Assembly (NCBI GenBank): GCA_021802645.1
Contig: JAJZRO010000004.1
Span: forward strand, 1-64,000
Direction: 5' to 3'
Source: Deltaproteobacteria bacterium
Lineage (GTDB): Bacteria; Desulfobacterota; Desulfobulbia; Desulfobulbales; Desulfurivibrionaceae
DNA: 64,000 nucleotides
This document shows positions 44,686 through 60,446 of the stretch, in pieces (the first letter of the stretch is position 1; every line of letters starts with the position of its first letter). A program made the translations under genes and the position numbers. Under the pieces are notes generated by a model, which made no database searches, was not told the DNA's origin, and saw only the letters and a list, made by a program, of their open reading frames with translations.

Positions 44686-47600
44686 CTAGAGGGGCAGGAT
44701 CTGCATTTCCTTGCGGACCGGATGGAGCCCCTTGAGCAGGGCGCCGGAGCGGCCGTCGATGCTGATGGGGTCGCCGAAGCGGATGGTCACTTCGCCCACC
44801 GTAGCATATTCCTCGGTCTCGTAAACCGTGAGGCGGTGGCAGCCGACCACGCAGGTCTTCTCCAGGCGGGTTGCCACCACCGAGGCGTGGGAGGTCTGGC
44901 CGCCGCGGGCGGTGAGCAGTCCCTCGGCCATGGCGATCTCCTTGATGTCCTCCGGCACCGTATCCTGGCGGATGAGGATGAGCGGGGTCTCCGGGTCCTC
45001 GGCCTGGAGCTGATCGATGTTCTCGCGGGTAAAGACCGCCCGGCCGGAGAGCGCGCTGCCCGAGACCCCGATGCCGTAGGCAAGGACGTGCGGTTCCAGG
45101 GCCTTGGCGTTCTCGAAGACGAAGAAGCGCTCCTGCTTCTTGATGGTGATCATGTCGCGGGTCTGTAGAAGGGAGAGCTCCTCGGCCTCCGGCCCCTCGA
45201 AGGTGAACTCGATTTCCTGGGGGTTCCACCGTTTTTCGTAGACCAGCCGTCGGGCGATGGCGAGCAGCCGCTCGTAGACCTTGGGGAAGCGCCGCTCCAG
45301 GGTCTGCTCCGCGTCGCGGCCGTCGATTTCCGCCTGCTCCACCGAGACCGGATAGGTGGTGACCAGGCCGCTGACGATGTCCTCGCCCTGATCGCCCACC
45401 GCGTAGTCGCCCCAGAGGGCCACCCGGCTCACCTTGCGGTAGGGATGGGCGGTGAAGAGCACGCCGCTGCCCGATTCCTGGCCGAGGTTGCCGAAGACCA
45501 TGGCCTGGATGATGACCGCGGTGCCCCAGGCGTCGGAGATGTCCATGAGCGCCCGATATTCCCTGGTTTTGACGGCATGCCAGGAGGCGAGCACCATCTC
45601 CATGGCGCCGATCAGCTGCAGCCAGGGATCATCGGGGATGCCGAGGCCGATGGTGCGGATGTTCTTCTGGTATTCCAGCGCCAGCTCCTGCATCTGGGCG
45701 GCGGTGAAATCCCGCTTCAATTTGACGCCGTGGCGGGTTTTGGCCTCGTCCATCAGGGCCTGGAAGGTCTCTCGCGCCACCCCCTGGCCCATGGCCCAGG
45801 ATTGCAGAAAGCGGCGGAAGTTGTCCCAGGCCAGGTATTCCTGGCCGCTGGCGGCGGCAAAGTGGCGGACGATCTCCTCGTTGAGGCCCACGTTGTGGAT
45901 GGTGCACATCATGCCGGGCATGGAGATGGCCGCCCCGCTGCGCACCGAGAGCAGCAACGGCTGCTCCGGGTCGCCGTAGCGGCGGCCGGTGCGCTCTTCG
46001 AGCTGTTCCAGCGCCAGCCGCAATTGGGCCATGAATTCCTCGCGGCCCTTGGCAAACTCCTTCACCACCGGCCAGCAGCGGAAGATCTCGGTGGTGACGA
46101 TGAAGCCCGGCGGCACCGGCATCCCCTCGTTGGCCAGCACGGTGAGGTTGTAGCCCTTGTTGCCCAGCAGGATGAGGTTGCCGCCCTTGGCCTGGCGGCC
46201 GTGGATAAAGGTGATGGCCCGCTCGGGGTTGTAGGTCATCAGGAGGTCGAGCTGTTCCTTGTCCAGCATCTCCCGCTGGCGCTCCAGGGTCTGGTGGATG
46301 CGGGTGATGAAGTTGTCCAGGTGCTGGAGGCCGAAGGTGGTGGCGATGAGGTCCCGCAGGAAGGATTCGGAGAGGCGGTTGGTGTTGCCGGCCAGGTCCC
46401 CCTCCTCCCACAGCCCCTGGTACTTGGGCAGCAGGTTCTGGCGGCCGATCTGCGGGATGATGATGGAGAGGTTGTTCTGGTGGATGTTGGTGTAGTAGGT
46501 GTAGATGATGTCCTTGACCCCCTCGGAGAGCCCCCGGAAGATGTCGAGGAACTGGGTGTAGGAGAAGCGCTTGATGCCGATGGAATTCATCAAGAGCGAC
46601 ATGTAGGTCTGGAGCTTGCGGCTGGCTATACCGTCGATGGCCAGGGCCCGCAGGTAGAGGCGCAGGCACTTGATGATGTGGATGAAGGTCGCCTTGGTGA
46701 TGATGGTGAGGTTCACCGTGGCGGGCAGCCGCTCGAGATAGGTATTGGCCAGGTTCTCCAGGCGGAAGGTGAGGCTTAGGGCATCGAACTTGCGCTCCTG
46801 GTAGCGGCCGTAGACCGAGGGGATGTCCACCGCGATGTGGCGTTTGTGGTAGATGCTCTCCTTGGCGACGAACTTCTCCTGGCTCAGGATCACGCCTTTC
46901 AGCCGCTCCAGCTGGCTGAGGATCGCCTGGAGGCACTCGAAGGTGTCGCAAATCTCCAAGTCCGCCAGCAGCTGCTCCATCTCCGGGAAGCCTGCCGCGG
47001 CTGCCTGCGTGAGCTGATGGCGCAGCTCCTCGGTGCCGAGGTTGTACTTCTCATGGCAGAGCTTGTACATCTCGACCAGGAGGTCGAAACGACGGCGTTC
47101 CTCCTCGGGCAGGTCGCTTTGCGCCGCGAGGAAGCTCTTGCGCCGATGGTCGTCCCAGGCCAAAAGATCCTGCACGGTGTGGATGTAGTCGAGTTGCCAG
47201 ACGCGGGTGGTCAGGGTGTGGAGGTGGTCCACAAAGGGGCCGCTCACGGCCACCTGGCGGAGTACCTCCTCGGGCACGTACGAGGTAAGCACCGCCTTGT
47301 CCCGCTCATGCCAGAAGAGCAGGATCGCCTCGATGAAGTTCACAATCAGATTGCTCGACTCCACATGGCTCTGCTTGCGGAGGAAGTGGATGAGCAGATC
47401 CTTGCGCTTGTGGATCTCGTCGAGGTCGGTGGAGACATCGCGCAGCAGCCCCTCGGCCCCGATCTCGTTGAAAAAAACCGGCATCAGCTTGGCGAACTGC
47501 TTGGCCAAGTTGTAGATCGGCTCGATGGGGTGGTTCAGCAGCTCGCTCACGTCGCGCTGGAAGAGATCGGTATCCTTGACGCAGGTGCCCGAGAGCTTGA

Positions 47601-48930
47601 GGTTGATGATGAGCGCCGAAAAGAGGGTGGAGCACCACTTGGGCTCCTGCTGCACCAGGCTGAGCCAGGCGCGGATGTTGGCCAGGTGCGCCGGGTTGGC
47701 GATGGGCTGCCACTCCTCGTTCACGCCGGTGAAGTTGGCGTACTGGAAGCCGAAGCGCACCGTCTCCCAGAGGAAGGTCTCCACCAGCCGGGAGTTGCCG
47801 CGCTGGAAGACCTCGGAGCCGATGACCTGGATGCACTGGAGCGAGGTATGCGGGTACTTGCGGACATTGGTCTTCAGGAGCGCCAGGGTGGTGAGCAGGA
47901 AGCGCTCGATCTCCTCGAAGGTCTGCTGGCGGATGAGGTGGACCAGGCTGCGGTTGATCTCGCGCAGCGTCTCCTCATGGATGAGCGCCAGCCCCCGGGT
48001 GTCCATGATGCGGAAGAGGAAGAGGAGCTTGCGGTTCTCGGCGAAGCGGTCGGCGCCTGCGGCCTCGGCCTCGCGCTCTCGCAATTGCTCCGGAATCTCC
48101 TTGTAGAGCCGCACGATCTCCATGTGCGAGGGCAGCGCCAGCAGCTGCCTGAGCGGCTCGGCGCCGCCGTTCGGCGTGATGGCGGCCACGGTGTCGCGGT
48201 GCTCACTGATCCGCTGGTGGGAGATGGCGGCAAAGAGCTTGCCCGCCCGCCACCCCTCGCAGAGGCCGCCGCATTCGGCGGTAAACCACGGCAGCGGGTC
48301 TTCCTCGGAGAGCCAGTAGGTATAGTTGAGCAGCAGCACCCGATGGACGAGACGAGTCAGGGCGGCGAGATCGAGGTGGGCCCCTGGCAGCGCCTCGCCC
48401 TTGGCCAGCAGCAGACCGGCGATCTTGCGCAGCGGGTGGTGGCCCTGGGCGATGTGCAGCAGCAGGTCGTCATCCAGGGCGGCGATGCCGCTGAAGCAGC
48501 GGGCCAGCGAGGGATTGTGGCGCGTCAGCTCGTCGCCGTCGAGGCTTGTCACCAATTTGTCGAGGTAGGCGAGTAGCCCCTCGGCGCCGTAGTGGAGCAG
48601 GGCCTCGTTTTTGGCCGAATCGGCGATGGCGGCGAGGAAGAGGGCGCAGAAGCGTTCGGCCGCCACCGGCCCATCCGGGTGGCGGCGGTAGTGGTCGAGG
48701 TTCTTGAGGACAAAGGAGCGGAGCTTGGGCAGGATCAGCTTCCAGTTGCGGAAGGGGTGGCTGATTTCGAGCAGCAGTTCGCGGAGGGCGTCGTGGATGC
48801 CCTTGTAGCCCACCACGACCGCGAGCAGCACCTCGTACTCCGGGGCAATGACCACCTCGCCCACCGCGGTTTCCAGCAGGTTGGCCCGCAGGGCATCGGA
48901 ATCAAGCGGTGGTGGCGAAGGCTCGGTCAT
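44686..48930 (-). CDS. PEP/pyruvate-binding (PPDK-like) 1414-residue protein
   Basis: The C-terminal third resembles the PPDK/PEP-synthase fold: ATP-grasp nucleotide-binding region (about 920-1290, starting ILLGNKGYNLTVLANEG) and phosphohistidine swivelling domain with TSHAS (His1348). The N-terminal about 900 residues are helical and match no domain I recognise. No PEP-binding TIM barrel is evident, so it is probably not a normal PPDK; it may phosphorylate an unknown acceptor. Start at 48930 chosen for its gaggag ribosome binding site. The frame remains open to 49308. Confidence 0.75.
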   Translation of the reverse strand: MTEPSPPPLDSDALRANLLETAVGEVVIAPEYEVLLAVVVGYKGIHDALRELLLEISHPFRNWKLILPKLRSFVLKNLDHYRRHPDGPVAAERFCALFLAAIADSAKNEALLHYGAEGLLAYLDKLVTSLDGDELTRHNPSLARCFSGIAALDDDLLLHIAQGHHPLRKIAGLLLAKGEALPGAHLDLAALTRLVHRVLLLNYTYWLSEEDPLPWFTAECGGLCEGWRAGKLFAAISHQRISEHRDTVAAITPNGGAEPLRQLLALPSHMEIVRLYKEIPEQLREREAEAAGADRFAENRKLLFLFRIMDTRGLALIHEETLREINRSLVHLIRQQTFEEIERFLLTTLALLKTNVRKYPHTSLQCIQVIGSEVFQRGNSRLVETFLWETVRFGFQYANFTGVNEEWQPIANPAHLANIRAWLSLVQQEPKWCSTLFSALIINLKLSGTCVKDTDLFQRDVSELLNHPIEPIYNLAKQFAKLMPVFFNEIGAEGLLRDVSTDLDEIHKRKDLLIHFLRKQSHVESSNLIVNFIEAILLFWHERDKAVLTSYVPEEVLRQVAVSGPFVDHLHTLTTRVWQLDYIHTVQDLLAWDDHRRKSFLAAQSDLPEEERRRFDLLVEMYKLCHEKYNLGTEELRHQLTQAAAAGFPEMEQLLADLEICDTFECLQAILSQLERLKGVILSQEKFVAKESIYHKRHIAVDIPSVYGRYQERKFDALSLTFRLENLANTYLERLPATVNLTIITKATFIHIIKCLRLYLRALAIDGIASRKLQTYMSLLMNSIGIKRFSYTQFLDIFRGLSEGVKDIIYTYYTNIHQNNLSIIIPQIGRQNLLPKYQGLWEEGDLAGNTNRLSESFLRDLIATTFGLQHLDNFITRIHQTLERQREMLDKEQLDLLMTYNPERAITFIHGRQAKGGNLILLGNKGYNLTVLANEGMPVPPGFIVTTEIFRCWPVVKEFAKGREEFMAQLRLALEQLEERTGRRYGDPEQPLLLSVRSGAAISMPGMMCTIHNVGLNEEIVRHFAAASGQEYLAWDNFRRFLQSWAMGQGVARETFQALMDEAKTRHGVKLKRDFTAAQMQELALEYQKNIRTIGLGIPDDPWLQLIGAMEMVLASWHAVKTREYRALMDISDAWGTAVIIQAMVFGNLGQESGSGVLFTAHPYRKVSRVALWGDYAVGDQGEDIVSGLVTTYPVSVEQAEIDGRDAEQTLERRFPKVYERLLAIARRLVYEKRWNPQEIEFTFEGPEAEELSLLQTRDMITIKKQERFFVFENAKALEPHVLAYGIGVSGSALSGRAVFTRENIDQLQAEDPETPLILIRQDTVPEDIKEIAMAEGLLTARGGQTSHASVVATRLEKTCVVGCHRLTVYETEEYATVGEVTIRFGDPISIDGRSGALLKGLHPVRKEMQILPL

Positions 48931-49537
48931 GATGCTCCTCAGGCGCGGAGACCGTCGGTCCAGCCGGCCGAGGCGGACAAGAGCCGCTTGGCCAGGGGGT
49001 GGAAGTCGTCTTTGCTCCTTCGCGACGAAGGTCGGAAGCGACGACCACAAATTCAAGAGGCAAGGCCGGGTATCCCTTAAAAACATCCACACATGCTGGC
49101 CCGACCGCCAGGGTCTTGGCAACAGCCGCCGGCCGCGTTCACGGCGCACGGCCACGACCGGCTTGTCGCGGCGGCTATTCTCGCCGCCGAATCGGGTTGG
49201 TATTTTCCGGACCGTATCTTCACGGTACGGGCGGGCGCCCTTTTTGTCAATGGGCGCCGTAGAATGGCGGCCGCCTTCCATGCACCCCGGGAGGGTCCCC
49301 GCCCCCATGGGGCCATACCATCGAAGCGGCCGAGGTTGAGGGGCCGCGGGGATGACGGCGGGGGGAAGGGCGGGTTACGCCACGAGAAAATGCGACAAAG
49401 TGTTTTCGAATACCGCGAAGTGGACTATAATCGTGACGGCTGCCACCGCCCCGCAGCGTGTGAGCGTTCATGGTCGCGGAACTCCGTGGCCCCTGCGTGG
49501 TGGGGCGAGGTCATTGAGAAGCAACGACGAGGGGTCG
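48931..49537. promoter_or_regulatory. Divergent intergenic region with candidate promoters
   Basis: 607 bases between the PPDK-like gene (-) and the polyketide-like cluster (+). Seen: a 7-bp hairpin (49234-49240 / 49252-49258) preceded by a short accgt/acggt hairpin, a - strand TTGACA at 49245-49250 that may be the PPDK -35, and a + strand tataat at 49426-49431 with weak upstream -35 ttttcg (49403-49408), about 110 bases before the first cluster gene. No gene was recognised. Promoter calls are tentative. Confidence 0.35.
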
Positions 49538-49972
49538 ATGGGGAGACTGATGCCGAGCGCGACCGCCGGGCCGCCGCCGCGCGGTGGGGTGGAAAACGTG
49601 TGGGGGTTCGTGGTCGCAACCGAAGGGGTACACCCGGCGGGTGACGGCGAGCTGACGGCCCGGATGACAGCGGCGGCCGAATCTCCCTGGTTTTCCGGCC
49701 ATTTCCCCGGCAATCCGATCTTGCCGGGAGTCGCCCAGCTCAAAATGGTGGCGGACCTTCTTGCCGCTGCCGGCAAAAATCTCGGCCGCCCGGTCGGCTT
49801 GAGTCGGGTCAAGTTCAGAAAGATCATCAAACCCGGAGAACTACTTGACATTCACCTAACAATCGGCAAAGTTGAACGGCAATATGTATTCCGGATAACC
49901 TGCGGCAACGAGGAGGTTTGTTCCGGGATGATGTTTTTCGCCCAACCCGATGAAGAAACAGAGGTTCCATGA
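49538..49972 (+). CDS. FabZ-like hotdog protein (first gene of the cluster)
   Basis: 144 residues from ATG 49538 (alternatives: 49550 or GTG 49589). A hotdog fold with GHFPGNPILPG matches FabZ/FabA-type dehydratases, His55 being the catalytic His. At the +14 position, where FabZ has Glu and FabA has Asp, there is Lys69 (LKM), so dehydration may be altered or absent. The next gene, the ACP, starts within the stop codon (ATGA), showing coupling. It probably acts on ACP-bound intermediates. Confidence 0.75.
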   Translation: MGRLMPSATAGPPPRGGVENVWGFVVATEGVHPAGDGELTARMTAAAESPWFSGHFPGNPILPGVAQLKMVADLLAAAGKNLGRPVGLSRVKFRKIIKPGELLDIHLTIGKVERQYVFRITCGNEEVCSGMMFFAQPDEETEVP

Positions 49973-50235
49973 GCAACGACATTCTTCAGAACATCACCCG
50001 CATCGCTGAAATCATCATCAACACCCTGAAACTGGAAGATGTCACCCCGCAAACCTTTGATGCCGATCTCGATCTGGTCGATGAAGTCGGCATTGACTCC
50101 ATGGATCTGGCGACCATTGCGTTGGTGCTCCGCGATGAATACGGCATCCGGATCGACGAAGACGACTATCCCAAGCTCACCACCGTACGGCGCATCGCGG
50201 AATACATCCATACCAAGCTCACCAGTGGTAAATAA
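49969..50235 (+). CDS. Acyl carrier protein
   Basis: 88 residues. The phosphopantetheine attachment Ser44 is in VGIDSMDLA (canonical DSL altered to DSM). Acidic helix II is present. A dedicated carrier for the cluster, not the primary fatty-acid ACP, because it sits inside it. Starts inside the stop of the hotdog gene and is followed one base later by a GTG. Confidence 0.92.
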   Translation: MSNDILQNITRIAEIIINTLKLEDVTPQTFDADLDLVDEVGIDSMDLATIALVLRDEYGIRIDEDDYPKLTTVRRIAEYIHTKLTSGK

Positions 50236-51291
50236 GTGACGGCAGTGGCAACGGAGTACAAATTCTCCGAGATCATCGCGAACCCGGCGATCAAGGAACG
50301 GTGGGACAAGGTCCGCCGCTATTTTTTCCTCCGTGAATCCACCTATGACATGACCAACCGCTGCAATATCCGCTGCGAGGGGTGTTATTACTTTACCGGC
50401 GAGAAGCAGGGCGCCGCAGAAACCAAGAGCCCCGAGGCCTGGAAACGGCTCTTGGAGGAGGAAAAGGCCCGGGGGATCACCTTTGTCGTCCTTGCCGGGG
50501 CCGAACCCTCACTGGTGCCGGAATTGTGCGCGGCCTGCCATGAAGTGATCCCCCTGGGCGCCATCGCCAGCAACGGCCTGAAGCCGCTCCCCCGCGAAAT
50601 AGAGTACCGGATCCATCTGTCGGTGTGGGGGAATGACCGAACCAGCCTTGCCATTCGGAAGGCCCCGGATATGCTGGTGCGGCAGGTGGAAAATTATCAG
50701 GGCGACCCCCGGGCCATTTTTGTGTACACCTTCACCCCCGTCAACATCGAGGAGGCGAGGGAGGTTACGGAACTCCTGGCGCGGCAAGGGTTACAGATCA
50801 CCTTCAACATGTTTTCCGCCCCGGTGGGTTATGGCGGGCCACTGCGGCACACCGCCGCCACCCTGGCCAGAACGGCGCAGGTCATGACCGAGTTGCTTGC
50901 CGAGTACCCGGAGACGGTCGTGTTTTCTCCTTACAACATCCTGGCCCACACCCGGCCACAGGGGCTGCATGCGCTGTTCTCCTGCTCCTATCCCCGGATG
51001 AATCAATCAACGGACATCGGGCTCGGCCGATCGTTTCGCCAGTATCGCACGGACCTGCGGTGGGATCGCGACGCGGCCTGCTGCGTTCCGGATACCGACT
51101 GCGACGACTGCCGGCATTACGCCGCCGGCAGCGCGGTGGTCACCGCCAGAATGTACCGTCACGCCACCGATCCAACGACCTTTTCCGCCTGGCTCGATTA
51201 TGTGGACACCTATCTGGCCGTCTGGGTGAAAGGATATAAAAAAGGGACCAACCTCTGCGCGACACCCGTTATCCCGTCGTCGAACCAATAA
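50236..51291 (+). CDS. Radical SAM enzyme A of the cluster
   Basis: 351 residues from GTG 50236. The [4Fe-4S]/SAM site is CNIRCEGC (Cys43, Cys47, Cys50), preceded by YDMTNR, and an LAGAEPSL SAM-binding motif follows (about 87-94). Five C-terminal cysteines (C250, C282, C283, C289, C292) may bind an auxiliary cluster. The product may be C-C bond formation, methylation or dehydrogenation of an ACP-bound acyl chain, but I cannot tell. Starts directly after the ACP stop. Confidence 0.85.
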   Translation: MTAVATEYKFSEIIANPAIKERWDKVRRYFFLRESTYDMTNRCNIRCEGCYYFTGEKQGAAETKSPEAWKRLLEEEKARGITFVVLAGAEPSLVPELCAACHEVIPLGAIASNGLKPLPREIEYRIHLSVWGNDRTSLAIRKAPDMLVRQVENYQGDPRAIFVYTFTPVNIEEAREVTELLARQGLQITFNMFSAPVGYGGPLRHTAATLARTAQVMTELLAEYPETVVFSPYNILAHTRPQGLHALFSCSYPRMNQSTDIGLGRSFRQYRTDLRWDRDAACCVPDTDCDDCRHYAAGSAVVTARMYRHATDPTTFSAWLDYVDTYLAVWVKGYKKGTNLCATPVIPSSNQ

Positions 51292-51312
51292 GTGCTTTTG
51301 GTATAACTCATC

Positions 51313-52311
51313 ATGAAAACGGTCAGTTCCCTGCTGGATAGTCACTGGTACGAACGGTATAAGAAAATTTCCAGGCTCAATATCCGGAGCTCCATCTATG
51401 ACGTGACCGACCGGTGTAACCTGCGCTGCAAGGGGTGTTTCTTTTTCTCGTCAGGCGAACACACGGTGGCTTCGGAAGAAAAGGACATCACCAAGTGGCA
51501 CGCCTTTGTCGAAAAAGAAATGGCGCGCGGCGTGAACCTGGCCATCCTCATCGGCGGCGAACCCACCCTCTGCCTGGATCGCATCGAGGCCTTTTACAAG
51601 CGGTTGCCAACCTTCTGCGCCACCAACGGGCAAATCAAGGTGCCCCGCGACCGCTTTCCCGACATGATGGTCGGCATTTCCCTCTGGGGCGATACCGAGG
51701 ATGAAGTCACCCTGCGCGGCAAGGATACCTTCAAGATCTCCAGCGCCAACTACGCGGGCGACCCCCATGCCTATTATCTGTACACGATCACCCCCAAGCA
51801 GTTGGGCAAGATAGAAAAAATGATCAAGAGGATTGCAGACGTCGGACTGAAGGTTCATCTGCAACTCTTGTCAAACGACGAGAGCGTGGACGGTTTTTCC
51901 TGGCAGCCGGCGGAACTCGTCGCCGTGCGCGCGGAAATGGATGCGATGCTGGATGCGTATCCGCGGACCGTGATTTCGTCGAAGTATTATCACCAGATCA
52001 TCACCTCGGGCGAGATGCTGGGGCGGCGCTTCGGCTGGATGGAATGCCCGTCGGTCACCGACGCCATCGACAAACGCGAGCCCCAACCCAAACGGCTTAC
52101 CAATTTTATCCGCTGGGCCTCGGATCTGAAAACGATGCACCGCTGCTGCACCTCGGAAACCCGCGACTGTTCCACCTGCAAAGACGGGGCGGCCCACATG
52201 AGCTGGGTCATGGTCAACAAAAGGGCCCATATGCAATCGGCGGCGGATCTGCAGAACTGGATAGAGGTGTACGAAATGTTCGCCAAACTTTACCAGTTCA
52301 TCCCCTGGTAG
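51313..52311 (+). CDS. Radical SAM enzyme B of the cluster
   Basis: 332 residues. CNLRCKGC (Cys35, Cys39, Cys42) with the preceding YDVTDR, and LIGGEPTL as the SAM-binding motif. Shares the C-terminal cysteine pattern of its neighbour: C245, C278, C279, C286, C289. Paralogous to radical SAM A, but diverged. Starts 21 bases after the A gene's stop. Confidence 0.85.
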   Translation: MKTVSSLLDSHWYERYKKISRLNIRSSIYDVTDRCNLRCKGCFFFSSGEHTVASEEKDITKWHAFVEKEMARGVNLAILIGGEPTLCLDRIEAFYKRLPTFCATNGQIKVPRDRFPDMMVGISLWGDTEDEVTLRGKDTFKISSANYAGDPHAYYLYTITPKQLGKIEKMIKRIADVGLKVHLQLLSNDESVDGFSWQPAELVAVRAEMDAMLDAYPRTVISSKYYHQIITSGEMLGRRFGWMECPSVTDAIDKREPQPKRLTNFIRWASDLKTMHRCCTSETRDCSTCKDGAAHMSWVMVNKRAHMQSAADLQNWIEVYEMFAKLYQFIPW

Positions 52312-52333
52312 GATCCGCCAAGGAGCGGCGGTG

Positions 52334-53584
52334 ATGGCCCCCAAAGACGCGGTTGTTGTCGGCTACGACGCCATCTCTCCCCTGGGAAGCCATCTTGAAA
52401 GCCAATGGGAACAAGCGCTCGCGGGCAAAAGCGGCATCGCGCCACTGACCCGCTTTCCCCTGGGCCATGATTTCCCGGTGAGGATCGCCGGTCAGGTTCC
52501 TGCCATCGACGACGCGGATTACCCCTTTCTTTCCGCCCGGCACCAAGCGGCCTGGAGTTCCCCGGTCTTCAAATATTCCATGCTGACGGTGGCAAGGGCG
52601 CTGGCGCAGAGTCGGATAGAAATCCTTCCCGCAATCGCGCCGCGGGTGGCCGTGACATACAGCTCCGCCATTGGCGGGCTCGATGCGGTCTTGGCCGCCG
52701 ACCGCGAACTGCAGCGGGCAAACAAGCTGCCCCCGCCGTATGCCAACCCCAACTCCTGCATCAATATGATCGGCGGGAAAATCGCCATCCAAACCGGGGC
52801 CAGGGGACCCATCACCTCCACCATCTCGGCCTGCGCGACCGGGCTGACCTCGATGCTCATCGGCGCCATGTTCCTCGCCCAGGACAAGGCGGATGTGGTT
52901 ATTTGCGGTGCCGTGGATTTTGCCCTGGTGGAACCGATCGTGGCCGGGTTTTATACCATGAACGGCGTATATACCCCGAAAGAGGGCCAGGAACACGGCC
53001 CGCCCGAAGCGGCCAGCCGGCCCTTTTCTGCAAATCGCCGGGGGTTTGTGCTTTCGGAAGGCGCCGGCGCGGTGATTCTGGCTACCAAGGAATTCAGCCA
53101 GGCCCACGGCCTGCACCACAGCGTCGAGCTTGCCGGCTGGGGGATGACCTCGGATGCCCATCACTTCGTGGCCCCGTATTTCGAGACGGTCAGACAGTGC
53201 ATGGCGGAGGCCATCAACGATGCGGCCATTTCCCCGCAGGACATCGATGTGGTGAACGCCCATGCCGCCTCGACCAAGGTGGGCGACAAGGTGGAATACG
53301 ATGCCCTGAAGGCGGTTTTTCATGAATCGCTGCCGCCGGTCTGTGCCAACAAGTCCCTGATCGGCCATGCCATGGGCGCCTCCAGCGTGATTGAAACCAT
53401 TTTCGCCCTCAAGGGGTTGCAGGAAGGGCTGGTGCCACCGACCATCAATTACCTGCCTGATCCTGAACTCGATCTCGATTGCGTGGCCGAGGGGCAGCGA
53501 CGCGTCCAGCAGGAATTTGTGCTGAAAAATGCCTTTGGCTTTGGCGGATGTAACAGTTGCGCGGTGTTCAAGAGAACCGACTGA
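52334..53584 (+). CDS. Beta-ketoacyl-ACP synthase (KS1)
   Basis: 416 residues from ATG 52334 (GTG at 52331 also possible). The complete Cys-His-His triad is present: Cys167 in SACATG, His310 in NAHAAST, His345 in IGHAMGA. FabF/KAS II type condensing enzyme extending an acyl-ACP with malonyl-ACP. The ribosome binding site aggag is 5-8 bases upstream. The next gene is another KS, 13 bases on. Confidence 0.9.
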   Translation: MAPKDAVVVGYDAISPLGSHLESQWEQALAGKSGIAPLTRFPLGHDFPVRIAGQVPAIDDADYPFLSARHQAAWSSPVFKYSMLTVARALAQSRIEILPAIAPRVAVTYSSAIGGLDAVLAADRELQRANKLPPPYANPNSCINMIGGKIAIQTGARGPITSTISACATGLTSMLIGAMFLAQDKADVVICGAVDFALVEPIVAGFYTMNGVYTPKEGQEHGPPEAASRPFSANRRGFVLSEGAGAVILATKEFSQAHGLHHSVELAGWGMTSDAHHFVAPYFETVRQCMAEAINDAAISPQDIDVVNAHAASTKVGDKVEYDALKAVFHESLPPVCANKSLIGHAMGASSVIETIFALKGLQEGLVPPTINYLPDPELDLDCVAEGQRRVQQEFVLKNAFGFGGCNSCAVFKRTD

Positions 53585-53597
53585 CCCTTAACACGCG

Positions 53598-54863
53598 ATG
53601 AAAGCGCCGCAGAACAGAAAGGTTTTTGTCGTCGGGTATGGCGCGGCCACCGCCCTTGGCCGCACCTTCGAGACCACCTGGGACGCGGCCTTAGCCGGCC
53701 GCACCGGTTTGCGCCGCATCACCCGCTGTGAGGTGCTCACCCGGAGCAACATCGTCGGCGAGATTCCGGACTGGGATCCCAGCCGTCTTGACTATGTGAG
53801 CAAGAAAGAGGCCTCGCTCTGGGATGCGGCCTACGTCTTTCTTACCATGGAGGCCTGCCGGGCCGCATTGGCCAATGCCGGACTGGTCATCGACGAAGAA
53901 ACCGGCCCCCGGACCGGTTGCCTGATCGGTTCCGCGCTCAACGGCACCGACGCCTACCGCATCGCCGTGAATAATTACGTCAACCAGGGGCCCCTCAAGG
54001 TCAGCCCCTATCTCTTGCCGAATGTCTGCGCCAATCTTCCCGCCGGCAAGGCCGGCATGCTTCTAGGTTTTTCCGGCCCCATCTTTTCCCCGCAAGGCGC
54101 TTGCGCTTCCGGCAACCATGCCATTGCCATCGGCGCGCGGATGATCCGGGACGGTGACTGCGATTTCGTCCTGGCCGGCGGCGTTGAAACCTGCCTCGTG
54201 CCGGAGATCATCCAAGGCTTTGCCAACATGCTTGCCACCATCAAGGTCGACGCCAGGGATCGCGCCTTCAACGATCCGGGTCAGGCCTCGCGGCCGTTCA
54301 GCCTGGACCGCAAAGGCTTTGTCCTGGCCGAGGGCGCCGGAGTGTTGGTGCTGGCCGCGGAAGAGTCGGCCCGGGCCTTTGGTTTGACGCCCAAGGCCGA
54401 GGTGGCCGGCATCGGGTGGAATTCGGATGCCCATCACTTTACGCGTCCCAACCAAAAAACCATTGTCCGGGCCATCCAGGCGGCCATCGAGGATGCCGGC
54501 CTTTCTCCTATGGACATTGGCGCGATCAATGCCCACGGCACCTCAACCCAGGCCGGGGACACCACCGAGGCAGGGTGCCTGCGCGAGGTGTTCGGCGCCG
54601 GCCTGCAACACATTCCGATCTCGGCAAACAAATCCCAAGTGGGCCATAGCCTCGGCGCCTCGGCGGCCATCGAGGCGGCCCTGGCCATCGAGGCGATGGG
54701 CAAGGGAATCGTGTTGCCCACCGCCAATCATCTCCCCGACCCGGCACTCAGCGATTTGGATGTCGTTCCCAATCATGCCCGCAACCATGCGCATGAGTTT
54801 GTGCTTTCCAATTCATTCGGCTTCGGCGGCACCAACTGCTGTCTCATTTTCAGGGGAAAGTAA
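53598..54863 (+). CDS. Beta-ketoacyl-ACP synthase (KS2)
   Basis: 421 residues. Cys169 in GACASG, His313 in NAHGTST and His350 in VGHSLGA form the triad, so it is an active condensing enzyme rather than a chain-length factor without Cys. Diverged from KS1. The stop overlaps the next ATG by one base, implying coupling with the thioesterase. Confidence 0.9.
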   Translation: MKAPQNRKVFVVGYGAATALGRTFETTWDAALAGRTGLRRITRCEVLTRSNIVGEIPDWDPSRLDYVSKKEASLWDAAYVFLTMEACRAALANAGLVIDEETGPRTGCLIGSALNGTDAYRIAVNNYVNQGPLKVSPYLLPNVCANLPAGKAGMLLGFSGPIFSPQGACASGNHAIAIGARMIRDGDCDFVLAGGVETCLVPEIIQGFANMLATIKVDARDRAFNDPGQASRPFSLDRKGFVLAEGAGVLVLAAEESARAFGLTPKAEVAGIGWNSDAHHFTRPNQKTIVRAIQAAIEDAGLSPMDIGAINAHGTSTQAGDTTEAGCLREVFGAGLQHIPISANKSQVGHSLGASAAIEAALAIEAMGKGIVLPTANHLPDPALSDLDVVPNHARNHAHEFVLSNSFGFGGTNCCLIFRGK

Positions 54864-55342
54864 TGCGACCAAAACCATTTATTCCGGAACCGCTGGGCAC
54901 GCCATCCATTGTCAGGGACAAAAACAGCGGCAAGGTATGGCATCGTTGCGAACAACGCACCCTCTACGCGGACACGGATCGCTCCCGGGTGGTGTATCAT
55001 GCCAACTACCTGCGATATTTCGAATTCGGCCGGGCGTCGCTCATGCGGGACGCGTCCTATCCGTATAAAAAAATTGAAGAAAGCGGCTACATCTATCCCA
55101 TCATCAAAACCGAACTCAACTATTATTCCCCCCTCTTCTATGACGACCTGATCTATATCCACACCCGGCCGGCCGGCCTGGAGCTGGTCACCTTGCAGTT
55201 TGACTACCTCATCACCAAGGCAGAGAGCGGTGAAATTGCCTGCACCGGGTTCACGCGGCATTGCGCCGTCAACGAGAAGGGTATTCCCGTGGAGATCGAC
55301 GCGAAGACGATCCGGCTGTGGGAGGAATTCCCCCGTTCATGA
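54863..55342 (+). CDS. YbgC/4HBT-like acyl thioesterase
   Basis: 159 residues. Single hotdog fold with the signature YADTDRSRVVYHANYLRYFE (about 35-54), the YbgC/4-hydroxybenzoyl-CoA thioesterase motif. It probably releases or transfers the finished acyl chain. Overlaps the KS2 stop by one base; its own stop overlaps the next gene's ATG (ATGA). Confidence 0.9.
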   Translation: MRPKPFIPEPLGTPSIVRDKNSGKVWHRCEQRTLYADTDRSRVVYHANYLRYFEFGRASLMRDASYPYKKIEESGYIYPIIKTELNYYSPLFYDDLIYIHTRPAGLELVTLQFDYLITKAESGEIACTGFTRHCAVNEKGIPVEIDAKTIRLWEEFPRS

Positions 55343-56226
55343 CCTCCTCCTCGCAGACGCCGCTTGTGCTCGCGATCCAGCCATGGTTTGCCGACCACTG
55401 TTTCAACGGCACAACCGTGCTGCCGGCGGTCGAAACCATGGCCTTGCTCGCGGTGGCGGTGGCCGAGGCCCATCCCGAGATCGCCCTTCAGGTCATGGAA
55501 GAGGTGCGGTTTTCCAAGTTTCTTGAAATTCCGCCGGGCGCCACCGCGATGGAGGTCATCCTTGAAGGCGTGCGGCATGAAGATGGTTCGCTGCAGGCCA
55601 GGCTGCTCAGCAGAAAACAGCTCAAGATGGCGACTCGGCTCACGGAGCATGGCGAAGTGCGGTTTCCCTTGGCGGCATCCCTGCCCGAACTGACCACGGA
55701 ATCCCCCTTGGACCCAGGGGCTGCCGACAGCGCGGTCATAGAAATTCCGGCGGCGCGAGTCTACGCGGAGCTGGTCCCCTTTGGCCCTGGGTATCATACT
55801 CTCCAGGGTACCCTGCACCTTTCTGGAGGAAAGGCCTGGGGCAGCCTGCGGGCTCCAACATTCGCGGCGCCGGCCAATCTCCCGAAAAGCCTCGGCTCAC
55901 CGTTTCCGCTGGACGGCGCTTTTCATGCGGCCTGTGTCTTGGGCCAATGCGTGGTGGATTTTGTGCCCTTTCCCGTAGGGCTTGACAGGCGGGTCATCCT
56001 CCGGCCAACCCAACCCGGCGGGAACTATCTGGTCCGGGTCGAACTGCGTGGCCAGACGCGGAACGAACTGGTTTTTGATCTGGAGATTCTTGACGACACG
56101 GGGCGGGTGTACGAAACGGTCAGCGGGGTACGGATGCGGGATGTGAGCGGGGGACGCAGCAAACCACCAGGGTGGATCAGAAATTCTTTGGCGTCCCCGC
56201 CCAAGCAAGGAGTTTTTCCATGGTGA
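55339..56226 (+). CDS. PKS-type double-hotdog dehydratase
   Basis: 295 residues. N-terminal motif HxxxGxxxxP: H20-CFN-G24-TTVL-P29. C-terminal DxxxH/Q: Asp192-GAF-His196 in the segment PLDGAFHA. These are the catalytic His and Asp of polyketide-synthase DH domains. A stand-alone DH acting on ACP-bound hydroxyacyl chains, possibly giving polyenes. ATGA overlap upstream. The last 50 bases overlap the convergent 56177-56635 gene. Confidence 0.8.
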   Translation: MTSSSQTPLVLAIQPWFADHCFNGTTVLPAVETMALLAVAVAEAHPEIALQVMEEVRFSKFLEIPPGATAMEVILEGVRHEDGSLQARLLSRKQLKMATRLTEHGEVRFPLAASLPELTTESPLDPGAADSAVIEIPAARVYAELVPFGPGYHTLQGTLHLSGGKAWGSLRAPTFAAPANLPKSLGSPFPLDGAFHAACVLGQCVVDFVPFPVGLDRRVILRPTQPGGNYLVRVELRGQTRNELVFDLEILDDTGRVYETVSGVRMRDVSGGRSKPPGWIRNSLASPPKQGVFPW

Positions 56227-56635
56227 TCCGGGTAAGCCACCGGAAAAAAAGCAGCGAGTAGGCGGCGCCGCAAAGATACATGCCGAGCAGAAAGACCAGG
56301 TGCGACAACCCATAGGTCAAGGGTCCTCCCACGACCACGATCCACGGCGTATGCAGCTTGACGGAGAGAATGCCGAGGGCGGCGACGGCGGGCCAGCCGA
56401 TAATATAGCTGACCATGATGGCCCCAAGGCCGCCAATCACCCTGAGGCTTGGTTTTTCCTTAAAGGCGGAAAGGTCGGTCCGCTCCTCGATGGCGGAACG
56501 AACAAAGGCGGTGGCGGCAATTTTCTGGATACTCTGCCTGATCACGTTGGGTGTCCCATGGAAAGAGTGTTCGACACAGCCCGGCGTTTCCATTAAATAC
56601 CTAAAATACCTCGGCCCTGCGAGGCCTTCAATCAT
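56177..56635 (-). CDS. Antisense small membrane protein inside the cluster
   Basis: 152 residues (an alternative ATG at 56593 gives 138). The second half has three hydrophobic segments (about 65-85, 87-107, 110-132) and a basic C-terminus. No recognised family. Its 3' end overlaps the DH gene by 50 bases and its 5' end lies 8 bases from the divergent glycosyltransferase gene. The position in a + strand operon is unusual. Confidence 0.55.
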   Translation of the reverse strand: MIEGLAGPRYFRYLMETPGCVEHSFHGTPNVIRQSIQKIAATAFVRSAIEERTDLSAFKEKPSLRVIGGLGAIMVSYIIGWPAVAALGILSVKLHTPWIVVVGGPLTYGLSHLVFLLGMYLCGAAYSLLFFRWLTRITMEKLLAWAGTPKNF

Positions 56636-56643
56636 TAAACAGT

Positions 56644-57363
56644 ATGGCGACCATGCATTTGCCTGATCCCTGGGCTTTTTTCGACAAGATTTATTGTATT
56701 TCCGTCGATGTGCGCCTTGACCGGCGAGCGGAGGCGCAGAGGCAATTTGCCGCGGTCGGCCTCCTCGAGCGGGTGGAGTTTGTCATTGTTGCCACCCACC
56801 CCGAGGACAGGGAAAAAGGAATTTTTGAATCCCACATGCTGTGCCTGAAGAAAGGCTTGGCGGCCGGCGCCAAGCATATCCTGATCTTTGAAGACGATAT
56901 AGTGTTCCGTCACTTTGACCGGCGCATTCTTGCGGAGGCCTGCGCCGCGTTAGGGCGTTTTCCGACGTGGAACGCCCTTTTTCTCGGCTGCCTTACCTCG
57001 GGAAGCCAGAAGCTTGCAGGTTCGCTGGCGACCATAAAATACCGCTGCCTCGCCCATGCCTATGCGCTCAAGGCGCCGTTTGCCGAGCGCCTTGTCCAAC
57101 AACCATGGCAGGGTGTTCCCTATGACGGCGTGTTGCGACGGTGTGCTGCCGATTTTTTTGCCATCTATCCCATGTCCGCGTTTCAGGGCGGCGCCGAGAC
57201 CGACAACCAAACCATGACCATTGACCGAATCCGCAGATTTTTCGGCGGCCTCGTCTTGATCCAGCAAATGAACGAATTTTATCAAAACCACAAGCCGCTT
57301 GTGGTTGCCATGCATTTGGCCATTTTCCTGGCGCTTATCCTGTTGGTCAGCGTGTGGCGATGA
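56644..57363 (+). CDS. GT25-like glycosyltransferase with C-terminal membrane anchor
   Basis: 239 residues. The N-terminal IYCISVDVRLDRRAEAQRQF and the acidic EDD (LIFEDDIVF, about residue 81) are typical of glycosyltransferase family 25 (LPS-type). A hydrophobic segment (about 219-237) at the C-terminus suggests membrane anchoring. It may glycosylate the lipid-like product. Its stop overlaps the next ATG (ATGA). Confidence 0.75.
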   Translation: MATMHLPDPWAFFDKIYCISVDVRLDRRAEAQRQFAAVGLLERVEFVIVATHPEDREKGIFESHMLCLKKGLAAGAKHILIFEDDIVFRHFDRRILAEACAALGRFPTWNALFLGCLTSGSQKLAGSLATIKYRCLAHAYALKAPFAERLVQQPWQGVPYDGVLRRCAADFFAIYPMSAFQGGAETDNQTMTIDRIRRFFGGLVLIQQMNEFYQNHKPLVVAMHLAIFLALILLVSVWR

Positions 57364-60300
57364 AAAAAAGCATGATGAACTACCGCCTGCTGCTGCTTAC
57401 GGTCGTACTGATCATCGGCTGTGCCGCTCTGGGTAAAATGCGCCTTGAGATCGACACGGACGTGACGCGGGCATTGCCAGCCAGCGAACCGGTCGTTGCC
57501 GACGCCCTGGACATCTTCAGGCACCACCCCATCCAGGATCAGGTCGCCGTCGACATCATGCTCAACCGCGACGATCAGGATGCCCTGGCGGCATGCGGCA
57601 CCCTTCTTGAGCAGAAGATGAAGGCGAGCGGACTCTTCGCCCAGGTCGGCACCGATGCCATGGGGGCGCTTTTCCCGCGTCTTGTCTCGCAGGTGGCCAG
57701 AGATCTGCCCTTGCTCTTTTCCGGCGAGGAATTGCAACAGGTCGCCCCGCTGCTGGAGCCGGCCCGCATCAACGAACGGCTGACCAAGCTGCATGAGGAT
57801 TTGGGGGGGCTGGAGGGAATTGGTCAGGCGGAGTTTGTTGCTCTTGACCCCCTGGGGCTGAAGGATCAGCTCCTTGGCAAAATGGCCTTGCTGGCGCCTA
57901 CCCTGAATGCCAAGTTTTACAAAGGCCACCTGTTCTCCGGCGATGGCCGTCACCTGCTGGTGACGGGAAAACCGCTGACCGCGGGAACCAACACGGCGGC
58001 GGCCCGTAAACTGTCCGCCTTCCTTGCGCAGGCCGCGCAAGAGATTGCGCACCAGTATGCCCGGCAGGGGCTCCAGGTAACCATGACCCCGGTCGGGGCG
58101 TATCGAGCCGCACTTGACAACGAAACCATGATCCGCCATGACGTGCAGTTTGCCCTGGTCATGTCAACCGTGGGCATTGCCCTGCTGCTGATCGTGTCTT
58201 TCTCCAGGCCCCTGATCGGCCTGCTGTCTCTGGTGCCGTCCTTCGTCGGGACGGCCGCCGCCCTTTTGGTCTATTCCTTCTTTCGTTCTTCCATCTCGAT
58301 CATGGTGCTCGGCTTCGGCGGTGCCCTCATCTCCATCACCGTGGATTACGGCATCGCCTATATGCTGTTTCTTGATCGCCCCAACGAAACCAAGGGCAAA
58401 GAGGCGGCCCATGAGGTGCGGGTGGTCGGGATCATGGGGATGGTGACCACGGCGGCCGCTTTTTTGGTGCTGTGCGGCAGCGGCTTCCCGCTTTTTGCCG
58501 AACTGGGGTTGTTCTCCGCCATCGGCGTGCTCTTTTCCTTTCTCTTTGTGCACACGGTGTTCCCCAAGATTTTTCCGGTCATGCCGCCGGGGAAGGACAG
58601 CGCGCCGCCCCTGTATGCATTTGTCGATACCCTCTACAACACCGGCACCACCGGGGCCATCGCCGCGGCGGTGCTTGCCGCTGGTCTGCTCTTTTTCGCG
58701 CGGCCACAGGTTCAGGTCAGCTTAGACAGCATGAACACGGTCAGCCAGGACACCCAGGCGGCCGACGCCTTGTTCACCAAGGTCTGGGGGAAGCTCGATA
58801 ACCGCATCTTCATGATGACCCCGGCCGCGACGGTCGCTGCCATCCAACAGCGCGACGACCGCGCCCTGGCCCGCCTTGAGGAGGATATCCGGAAAGGCAC
58901 CGTTGCCGCGGCCTTTGTCCCGTCGATGTTCTTTCCCGGCAAGGAGCGGGGGGAACAGAACTTGGCCGCCTGGCATGCCTTCTGGGATAGGGGTCGGGCG
59001 GCAGAGGTCAGGAAGGCGCTTCTCGGTGCCGGCCGCCGGCTCGGCTTTACCCCGGAGGCCTTTGCTCCCTTTTTTTCGCGCCTCGAACCCGGATTTGCCA
59101 TGCAACCGCAGGAAATCCCGAAAGAATATTTCGGGTTGCTGGGGATTTCCCAAAATACCCGGGAGCCCGGCCTGCTGCAGTTTATCACCGTGACGCCGGG
59201 AAAAAACTATGATGCCGCCGCTTTCCGGGCCCGCTATGGCCGGGACAGCAAAATCTTTGATCCCACCTTTTTCGCGCAACGATTGGCCGATCTGTTGTTT
59301 ACCACCTTTACCTCCATGTCGGTGATTATCGCCATCAGCGTGGCCCTGCTCCTCTTCTTCGTCAACCTGGACCTGCCGCTGACGCTTTTGACCCTGTTGC
59401 CCTGCGCTTTTGCGTATATCTGTACCCTGGGAACCATGAAACTCCTCGGCCAGCCCCTGGATATCCCTTCGCTCATGCTGTTGTCCATCACCATCCTTGG
59501 CATGGGCATCGACTATCCTATTTTTTGCGTGCGGGGCCACCAGCGATATCGGGATGTTGCCCATCCATCGTATGTCCGGGTGCGCAGCAGCGTCTTTCTC
59601 TCCAGCACCTCCACCATGATCGGCTTCGGGGCCCTGTGTTTCGCCGAGCATCGTCTGTTGCAAGGCATTGGTATTGTCTCCCTGCTGGGCATCGGGTATT
59701 CCCTGCTCGGGACCTTCCTGCTGCTGCCCCCCTTGTTGCAACGCCATTTTTCCGGCCCACCGAAGAAGGCCGGCGAGGTGGCCAGGGGTCTTTTTGCCAG
59801 CGTCCGTCGCCGGTTTCACACGGTGGAGGCGTACCCCAGGATGTTCGCCCGTTGTAAGCTGTATTTTGATCCCCTCTTCGAGGAGCTGCCGAGGATGCTG
59901 GCCGCCCGCCAGGAGATCAGAACGATCATGGATATCGGCTGCGGTTACGGAATTCCCGCCTGCTGGTGCCTCGAAAAATTCAGCGATGCACGGGTCGTCG
60001 CCCTGGAACCGGACCCCGAAAGGGTGCGGATCGCGGGCCTGGCCCTGGGTGAGCGCGGGACCGTCACCCAGGGCTGGGCGCCGGATCTGCCAGCCCTGCC
60101 GCACGGTCTGGCCGATGTGGTTTTTCTGCTGGATATGCTCCATTATCTGGATGACGCGGCGACCGCGGTGGTCTTTCGCAAAAGCGCCCAATCCCTTGCC
60201 CAGGGAGGAATTCTGGTGGCCAGATACACCATCCGGCCGGCTGGCAAGCCATCGTGGTCGTGGCGGCTGGAGAACGCCCGGGTCCAGGCGGCGGGTCAAG

Positions 60301-60446
60301 AGGCGTGGTATCGGTCACCGGAGAGAATGGTTCGCCTCATGACGGAGGCGGGCTTTACGGTCATCGTCAACGAAAAGGCCACCGATCCTGAGTTGGCGTG
60401 GATCGTGGGCATGAACCAAACAGAGGCTGCGCGTGCGTCCCTTTAG
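57360..60446 (+). CDS. MMPL-family exporter fused to a C-terminal methyltransferase
   Basis: 1028 residues. Residues about 1-805 are an RND-superfamily MMPL transporter with about 12 transmembrane segments and two periplasmic domains. Residues about 815-1028 are a class I SAM-dependent methyltransferase (motif I IMDIGCGYGI, Asp858; VVALEPDPERV). It probably exports and perhaps methylates the acyl product at the membrane. ATGA overlap with GT25. The next gene's GTG overlaps its last 14 bases. Confidence 0.85.
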   Translation: MKKSMMNYRLLLLTVVLIIGCAALGKMRLEIDTDVTRALPASEPVVADALDIFRHHPIQDQVAVDIMLNRDDQDALAACGTLLEQKMKASGLFAQVGTDAMGALFPRLVSQVARDLPLLFSGEELQQVAPLLEPARINERLTKLHEDLGGLEGIGQAEFVALDPLGLKDQLLGKMALLAPTLNAKFYKGHLFSGDGRHLLVTGKPLTAGTNTAAARKLSAFLAQAAQEIAHQYARQGLQVTMTPVGAYRAALDNETMIRHDVQFALVMSTVGIALLLIVSFSRPLIGLLSLVPSFVGTAAALLVYSFFRSSISIMVLGFGGALISITVDYGIAYMLFLDRPNETKGKEAAHEVRVVGIMGMVTTAAAFLVLCGSGFPLFAELGLFSAIGVLFSFLFVHTVFPKIFPVMPPGKDSAPPLYAFVDTLYNTGTTGAIAAAVLAAGLLFFARPQVQVSLDSMNTVSQDTQAADALFTKVWGKLDNRIFMMTPAATVAAIQQRDDRALARLEEDIRKGTVAAAFVPSMFFPGKERGEQNLAAWHAFWDRGRAAEVRKALLGAGRRLGFTPEAFAPFFSRLEPGFAMQPQEIPKEYFGLLGISQNTREPGLLQFITVTPGKNYDAAAFRARYGRDSKIFDPTFFAQRLADLLFTTFTSMSVIIAISVALLLFFVNLDLPLTLLTLLPCAFAYICTLGTMKLLGQPLDIPSLMLLSITILGMGIDYPIFCVRGHQRYRDVAHPSYVRVRSSVFLSSTSTMIGFGALCFAEHRLLQGIGIVSLLGIGYSLLGTFLLLPPLLQRHFSGPPKKAGEVARGLFASVRRRFHTVEAYPRMFARCKLYFDPLFEELPRMLAARQEIRTIMDIGCGYGIPACWCLEKFSDARVVALEPDPERVRIAGLALGERGTVTQGWAPDLPALPHGLADVVFLLDMLHYLDDAATAVVFRKSAQSLAQGGILVARYTIRPAGKPSWSWRLENARVQAAGQEAWYRSPERMVRLMTEAGFTVIVNEKATDPELAWIVGMNQTEAARASL

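Follow-up and report, generated by a model that had tools for sequence, protein, structure and literature searches.

Paired radical SAM proteins with a shared five-cysteine segment, encoded beside an acyl carrier protein in a lipid-type gene cassette of Desulfobacterota

It is a long-standing question how acyl chains are desaturated or cyclised in anaerobes, where O2 is not available. The radical SAM enzymes encoded in FASII clusters, the leading suspects since 2009, are still candidates. Rattray et al. (2009) reported that FASII clusters of Kuenenia and Desulfotalea psychrophila contain radical SAM genes; the latter contains C31:8 and C31:9 hydrocarbons and no ladderanes, and an anaerobic PUFA route was proposed (PMC2649909). 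When Kuenenia genes were expressed in E. coli no ladderanes were obtained, and the two radical SAM proteins were undetected (PMC4790861). Clusters of the "ladderane" type have been reported, without a product, in Desulfobacterota, Myxococcota and other phyla (PMC9902471). PDB entry 6LVT, considered as an anammox ACP, was rejected, its source being Thermotoga.

The window analyzed here is a stretch of 64,000 nucleotides (contig JAJZRO010000004.1, assembly GCA_021802645.1) from a Deltaproteobacteria bacterium. Its segment 49538-60446 has the gene content by which ladderane candidates are recognized, i.e., radical SAM genes in a FASII cluster with FabF paralogues and a SAM methylase; the kind of cluster is already known, having been regarded as a candidate for ladderane or polyunsaturated-lipid synthesis since 2009. 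The Kuenenia and Desulfotalea clusters contain two radical SAM genes (Kuste3342/DP1853 and Kuste3343/DP1855; PMC2649909, PMC4790861), as does the window, where we term the two proteins A and B. These clusters also share SAM methylases, FabF paralogues, a polysaccharide-deacetylase-like gene and B12 radical SAM genes, a likeness by description only. The phytoene-dehydrogenase-like gene that is a feature of Kuenenia and Desulfotalea was not found near A/B cassettes among the annotated families; PF01593 matches lie away from the cassette, and there is a fragment on another contig of this genome (C25:92-289). The genes of the cassette and those around it are as follows.

49538..49972, plus strand: DH1, hot-dog dehydratase (FabA/ApeI-like; FabA-like match, 1.3e-9), conserved upstream of the ACP; open frame from 49352, the start at 49538 being an estimate
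49969..50235, plus strand: acyl carrier protein (ACP), 88 aa (PP-binding, 2.2e-10), ending one base before A
50236..51291, plus strand: radical SAM protein A, GTG start, 351 aa; RS cluster C43/C47/C50; AF2 mean pLDDT 90.8
50983..51111, plus strand: five-cysteine segment of A (codons 250-292; C250, C282-C283, C289, C292)
51313..52311, plus strand: radical SAM protein B, 332 aa; RS cluster C35/C39/C42; AF2 mean pLDDT 91.5
52045..52179, plus strand: five-cysteine segment of B (codons 245-289; C245, C278-C279, C286, C289)
52331..53584, plus strand: KS1, FabF-like (SACATG; His motifs NAHAAST, NKSLIGH)
53598..54863, plus strand: KS2, FabF-like (GACASG; His motifs NAHGTST, NKSQVGH)
54863..55342, plus strand: TE, 4HBT/YbgC-type thioesterase (TIGR00051, above cut-off)
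55339..56226, plus strand: DH2, polyketide-synthase-type dehydratase-like (PS-DH, 6.2e-9), start estimated; conserved end of the cassette
56177..56635, minus strand: small protein, no Pfam match; near the cassette in 34/76 loci
56644..57363, plus strand: family 25 glycosyltransferase-like protein (PF01755)
57354..60446, plus strand: MMPL-type exporter fused to a SAM methyltransferase; same fusion in loci L063, L065 and L066
60433..61320, plus strand: polysaccharide-deacetylase-like protein (PF01522), found in 33/76 loci

The order DH1-ACP-A-B-KS1-KS2-TE-DH2 was kept in most of the 19 A/B neighborhoods examined, across the phylum, and the ACP was 64-89% identical in most related cassettes. At 44686-49308 the window encodes a very long protein (~1400-1540 aa), transcribed divergently from the cassette and containing PPDK_N and PEP-utilising domains; relatives have an ApeP/KR/LolA operon at this place.

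Aryl polyene (APE) clusters contain a KS-CLF, a KR, ApeP- and ApeI-like dehydratases, an ACP, a thioesterase, LolA, an MMPL protein and a methyltransferase. Components of all these types are present in this genome, but they are split between the window and contig C25, and the ApeI match was below the cut-off. The A/B system is also unlike APE clusters in having two radical SAM proteins, B12 radical SAM proteins and extra ketosynthases, and in occupying at least two contigs. Contig C25 (L084, 3600-12800) encodes an AMP-ligase, LolA, a KR, an ApeP-like dehydratase, an ACP, a KS-CLF fusion and a B12 radical SAM protein, and its module (ApeP-KR-LolA / ACP-KS-CLF-B12 radical SAM) is the one that lies beside the A/B cassette in relatives, with 56-79% identity. 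The fused ketosynthase has TACSSG and HGTGT in its first half and no active-site cysteine in its second, which matches expectation for a KS-CLF. A further contig, C10 (L083, 1-14000), carries a lipid-like cluster with a KS, an acyltransferase, radical SAM proteins (two of the B12 type and one with SPASM), one FabH-like and one BtrH-like protein, and an ABC-2 transporter.

Aligned over ~300 residues, A and B share 28-30% identity. A preliminary description had reported in both proteins a CxxxCxxC site and, toward the end, a lone cysteine followed by CC-x5/6-C-x2-C, and the translations place every one of these residues exactly as claimed, with CC-x5-C-x2-C in A and CC-x6-C-x2-C in B. The complete set of cysteines is 43, 47, 50, 98, 101, 250, 282, 283, 289, 292 and 341 in A, and 35, 39, 42, 87, 102, 245, 278, 279, 286 and 289 in B. 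In the orthologues compared (52 of A and 52 of B), the three cysteines of the CxxxCxxC site and the five C-terminal ones were invariant where the residues were present, as was C102 of B; positions 98, 101 and 341 of A and 87 of B were variable. The full C...CC...C..C pattern occurred in 144/144 A/B ORFs, versus 0/4823 other ORFs in the same loci, and none of this genome's 30 remaining radical SAM proteins contained CC-x4-6-C-x2-C. The five-cysteine pattern is far beyond chance. It takes the form CCVPDT-[D/E/V]-C-xx-C in A and CCTS-x-TR-[D/E]-C-xx-C in B.

PF04055 (Radical_SAM) matched A at 1.2e-7, the only Pfam cut-off that A reached, and B at 3.4e-5, below the Pfam cut-off; neither protein reached an NCBIfam cut-off, and PDB sequence matches were confined to the radical SAM core. 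Membership of the radical SAM superfamily is indicated by the invariance of CxxxCxxC in orthologues, together with the match of the AF2 models to radical SAM structures. A tree that also included the genome's 30 remaining radical SAM proteins joined A, B and a single-gene clade, T, in one clade (support 100/99), each of the three occupying one side of a branch. This upholds the earlier proposal that A and B are paralogues and runs counter to their belonging to unrelated subfamilies; in a sequence alignment, all five C-terminal cysteines line up in A, B and the third clade. Plasmids of Burkholderia, Tistrella, Alteromonas and one Enterobacter carry members of a fourth clade, P, and the same five cysteines were present in the four P sequences read, the motif being CC-x4-5-C-xx-C in both T and P. 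A grouped with T (96/99). Together, A, B, T and P form one radical SAM family (support 100/99), which was named by none of the curated libraries checked (Pfam, NCBIfam, PDB sequences).

The P operons comprise a trio encoding a PaaA-type diiron protein, the radical SAM protein and a MaoC/PaaI (hot-dog) protein (L214, L215, L216, L217); because these relatives share operons with MaoC/PaaI and a diiron protein, an acyl-thioester context recurs. The Enterobacter copy, which is Alteromonas-like (L216:5956-7089, Enterobacter hormaechei plasmid pVIM-Exn692), adjoins Tn3 and IS21 transposase genes on this conjugative IncC plasmid. Clade T had no link to acyl genes in the loci examined, except for an SDR in L087. 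No relatives of B were found among viral contigs.

A was present in 95/258 genomes of the order, and B, at a minimum identity of 70%, in 28/395 genomes sampled across the phylum. The pairing of A and B is obligate: B comes after A wherever the contig extends beyond it, whether in Desulfobacterota, in Spirochaetes or in Myxococcales. A was found in 74 of 80 named loci, and in each case where A lacked a B match the contig ended shortly after A. The start of B usually lies within ~200 bases of A; in L095, B is more than 2 kb further on, and in L074 a ketosynthase stands between them; these two loci look like one contig. The tandem arrangement suggested earlier is supported in the sense of this obligate co-occurrence and the fixed gene order. 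The cysteine signature by itself does not imply tandem action, because the sister clades T and P carry it as single genes. A and B may work in succession or as a heterodimer.

In genome assemblies titled Spirochaetes and Myxococcales, B was 73-80% identical. B was more conserved than RecA in each of five genome pairs (B versus RecA identity: G193, 89 versus 82%; G644, 78 versus 70%; G651, 80 versus 66%; G385, 80 versus 60%; G649, 75 versus 62%). An argument for horizontal transfer from high B identity alone was rejected, since B exceeds RecA even within the family (89 versus 82%), so that constraint explains much of the high identity of B. A patchy distribution, with presence in 95 of the 258 genomes of the order and absence from the only genome of the same genus (G192), still allows for transfer or loss.

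AlphaFold2 models, built from alignments of 54 sequences for A and 48 for B, were confident. The best PDB fold matches were BlsE, SuiB, SkfB and anSME for A (TM ~0.5), and anSME, CteB, DesII, AbmM and viperins for B (TM ~0.5), with SpeY also among the latter. The Foldseek matches covered mainly the barrel (TM ~0.5, rmsd 4-11 Å); as comparisons of predicted models they support a barrel and a SPASM/twitch neighborhood, and give no fold for the cysteine segment. Twitch domains have three or four cysteines for one auxiliary cluster, and SPASM domains seven to eight for two clusters (PMC10452713). The five invariant cysteines of A and B are enough for one four-cysteine cluster, as in a twitch domain, and the arrangement of a CxxxCxxC barrel followed by a C-terminal cysteine segment is that of the twitch enzymes BtrN, MoaA and SpeY. 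A and B differ from these in their five invariant cysteines with a CC dyad, in having no HMM match, and in a C-terminal superposition that was unconvincing. SPASM enzymes (anSME, SuiB, SkfB, PqqE) gave the best fold and profile matches to the core, but with five cysteines and no PF13186 match in Pfam, A and B fall outside the SPASM definition; PF13186 does match another radical SAM protein of this genome (L083:4063-5100). The likeliest explanation of the five invariant cysteines, on sequence grounds, is the auxiliary Fe-S cluster that had been suggested earlier, and the fifth may be one of the CC pair, serving as a spare or switchable ligand.

Our preferred reading, which we consider about evenly balanced between right and wrong, is that A and B are twitch-like paired subfamilies that oxidize an ACP-bound chain, with the auxiliary cluster as electron acceptor. 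A and B would each cleave SAM at the CxxxCxxC [4Fe-4S] cluster, generating a 5'-deoxyadenosyl radical, and four of the five C-terminal cysteines would hold the twitch-like auxiliary cluster. Held on the neighboring ACP, an intermediate of acyl or polyene type would reach A first and B second, or else a complex of the two; a hydrogen atom of the chain would pass to the radical, and the second electron to the auxiliary cluster. The outcome would be an O2-independent two-electron oxidation, i.e., dehydrogenation or C-C bond formation. Extension, shaping and release of the product would fall to KS1, KS2, DH1, DH2 and TE, and outward movement of the lipid to MMPL/LolA-type proteins. As for the earlier suggestion of an ACP-bound chain, the operon fits it, with the ACP directly upstream and the ketosynthases directly downstream; it is this context that makes an ACP-bound acyl or polyene chain the probable substrate and action upon it plausible. 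In SuiB an auxiliary cluster has been directly observed to accept an electron, and the same has been proposed for BtrN and PqqE (PMC9012708); by analogy it would happen in A and B, whose models both have SPASM/twitch enzymes that carry out two-electron oxidations among their best fold matches. The Fe-S occupancy, oxidative chemistry and order of action are likewise features that we infer.

In the wider neighborhood, over 76 loci (approximate counts, some genomes being present twice in the set), a B12-binding radical SAM protein occurred around the cassette in 48, a KR in 29, an ApeP-like dehydratase in 29 and LolA in 22. A PlsY-like glycerol-3-phosphate acyltransferase lay just downstream of the cassette in 28/76 loci (L070, L071, L077 and 25 others), and its recurrence suggests a glycerolipid as end product. 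An AMP-ligase was found in 11/76 and an aromatic amino acid lyase in 6/76 (L069, L074, L095, L117, L131 and L159, of which L074 and L095 are apparently the same contig), the lyase hinting at aryl-polyene-type starters in some species. These genes, together with the resemblance of the KS-CLF fusion, ApeP-like dehydratase, KR, LolA and MMPL-methyltransferase to aryl polyene machinery, could mean that the target of A and B is not the chain but the starter or head group in a lipid of the aryl polyene kind, the two enzymes replacing O2-dependent tailoring under anaerobic conditions. We regard this as unlikely: the lyase is rare among the loci and absent from this entire genome, and the locking of A and B to two extra ketosynthases and two dehydratases points to the chain.

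It is also improbable, and somewhat more so, that zinc occupies the five-cysteine segment as a structural (or mixed) site and that A and B are single-cluster radical SAM enzymes. CC-x5-C-x2-C does resemble zinc-knuckle spacing, there was no SPASM HMM match, and predicted models show no bound metal. But auxiliary clusters commonly occur where this segment lies, C-terminal to the radical SAM barrel, SPASM/twitch enzymes have the nearest folds, and five invariant cysteines exceed a simple Zn-Cys4 site.

That A and B cyclise an ACP-bound polyene by C-C bond formation, as proposed for anammox ladderanes, seems to us very unlikely. It would agree with the proposal made for the radical SAM enzymes of the syntenic FASII cluster of Kuenenia and Desulfotalea (PMC2649909), with the antiSMASH-type "ladderane" clusters reported from Desulfobacterota, Myxococcota and others (PMC9902471), and with the extreme conservation of B, which fits demanding chemistry. 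However, D. psychrophila carries homologues and makes the C31:8 and C31:9 hydrocarbons, with no ladderanes found, an objection also raised by a referee, and A and B have been likened to Kuste3342/3343 by cluster description, not by sequence. Finally, SkfB, SuiB and PqqE are among the best PDB matches by sequence and structure, but we rejected as extremely unlikely the idea that A and B are peptide (RiPP) maturases lying by chance in a lipid cluster. These matches span the radical SAM core common to such enzymes, neither A nor B had an RRE domain match, a conserved small ORF for a precursor was not seen, and the flanking genes are fatty-acid genes across phyla.

In the literature consulted on such clusters we found no description of a family defined by the five cysteines, of strict pairing across phyla, or of the link to a KS-CLF polyene module. 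A bolder version of the preferred reading, which we think distinctly doubtful, is that A and B are an obligate two-enzyme, possibly heterodimeric, system with a new five-cysteine auxiliary site, whose consecutive anaerobic oxidations of an ACP-bound polyene would provide sulfate reducers, spirochaetes and myxobacteria with a membrane lipid, polyunsaturated or carbocyclic, that has so far gone unrecognised. Homologues of A and B are present in cultured organisms, i.e., Desulfofustis glycolicus DSM 9705 and Desulforhopalus sp. IMCC35007. With B conserved beyond RecA, an invariant site, a fixed ACP partner and these cultured homologues, the A/B pair offers a concrete, purifiable system in which the long-standing question of O2-free desaturation and cyclisation can be put to the test.
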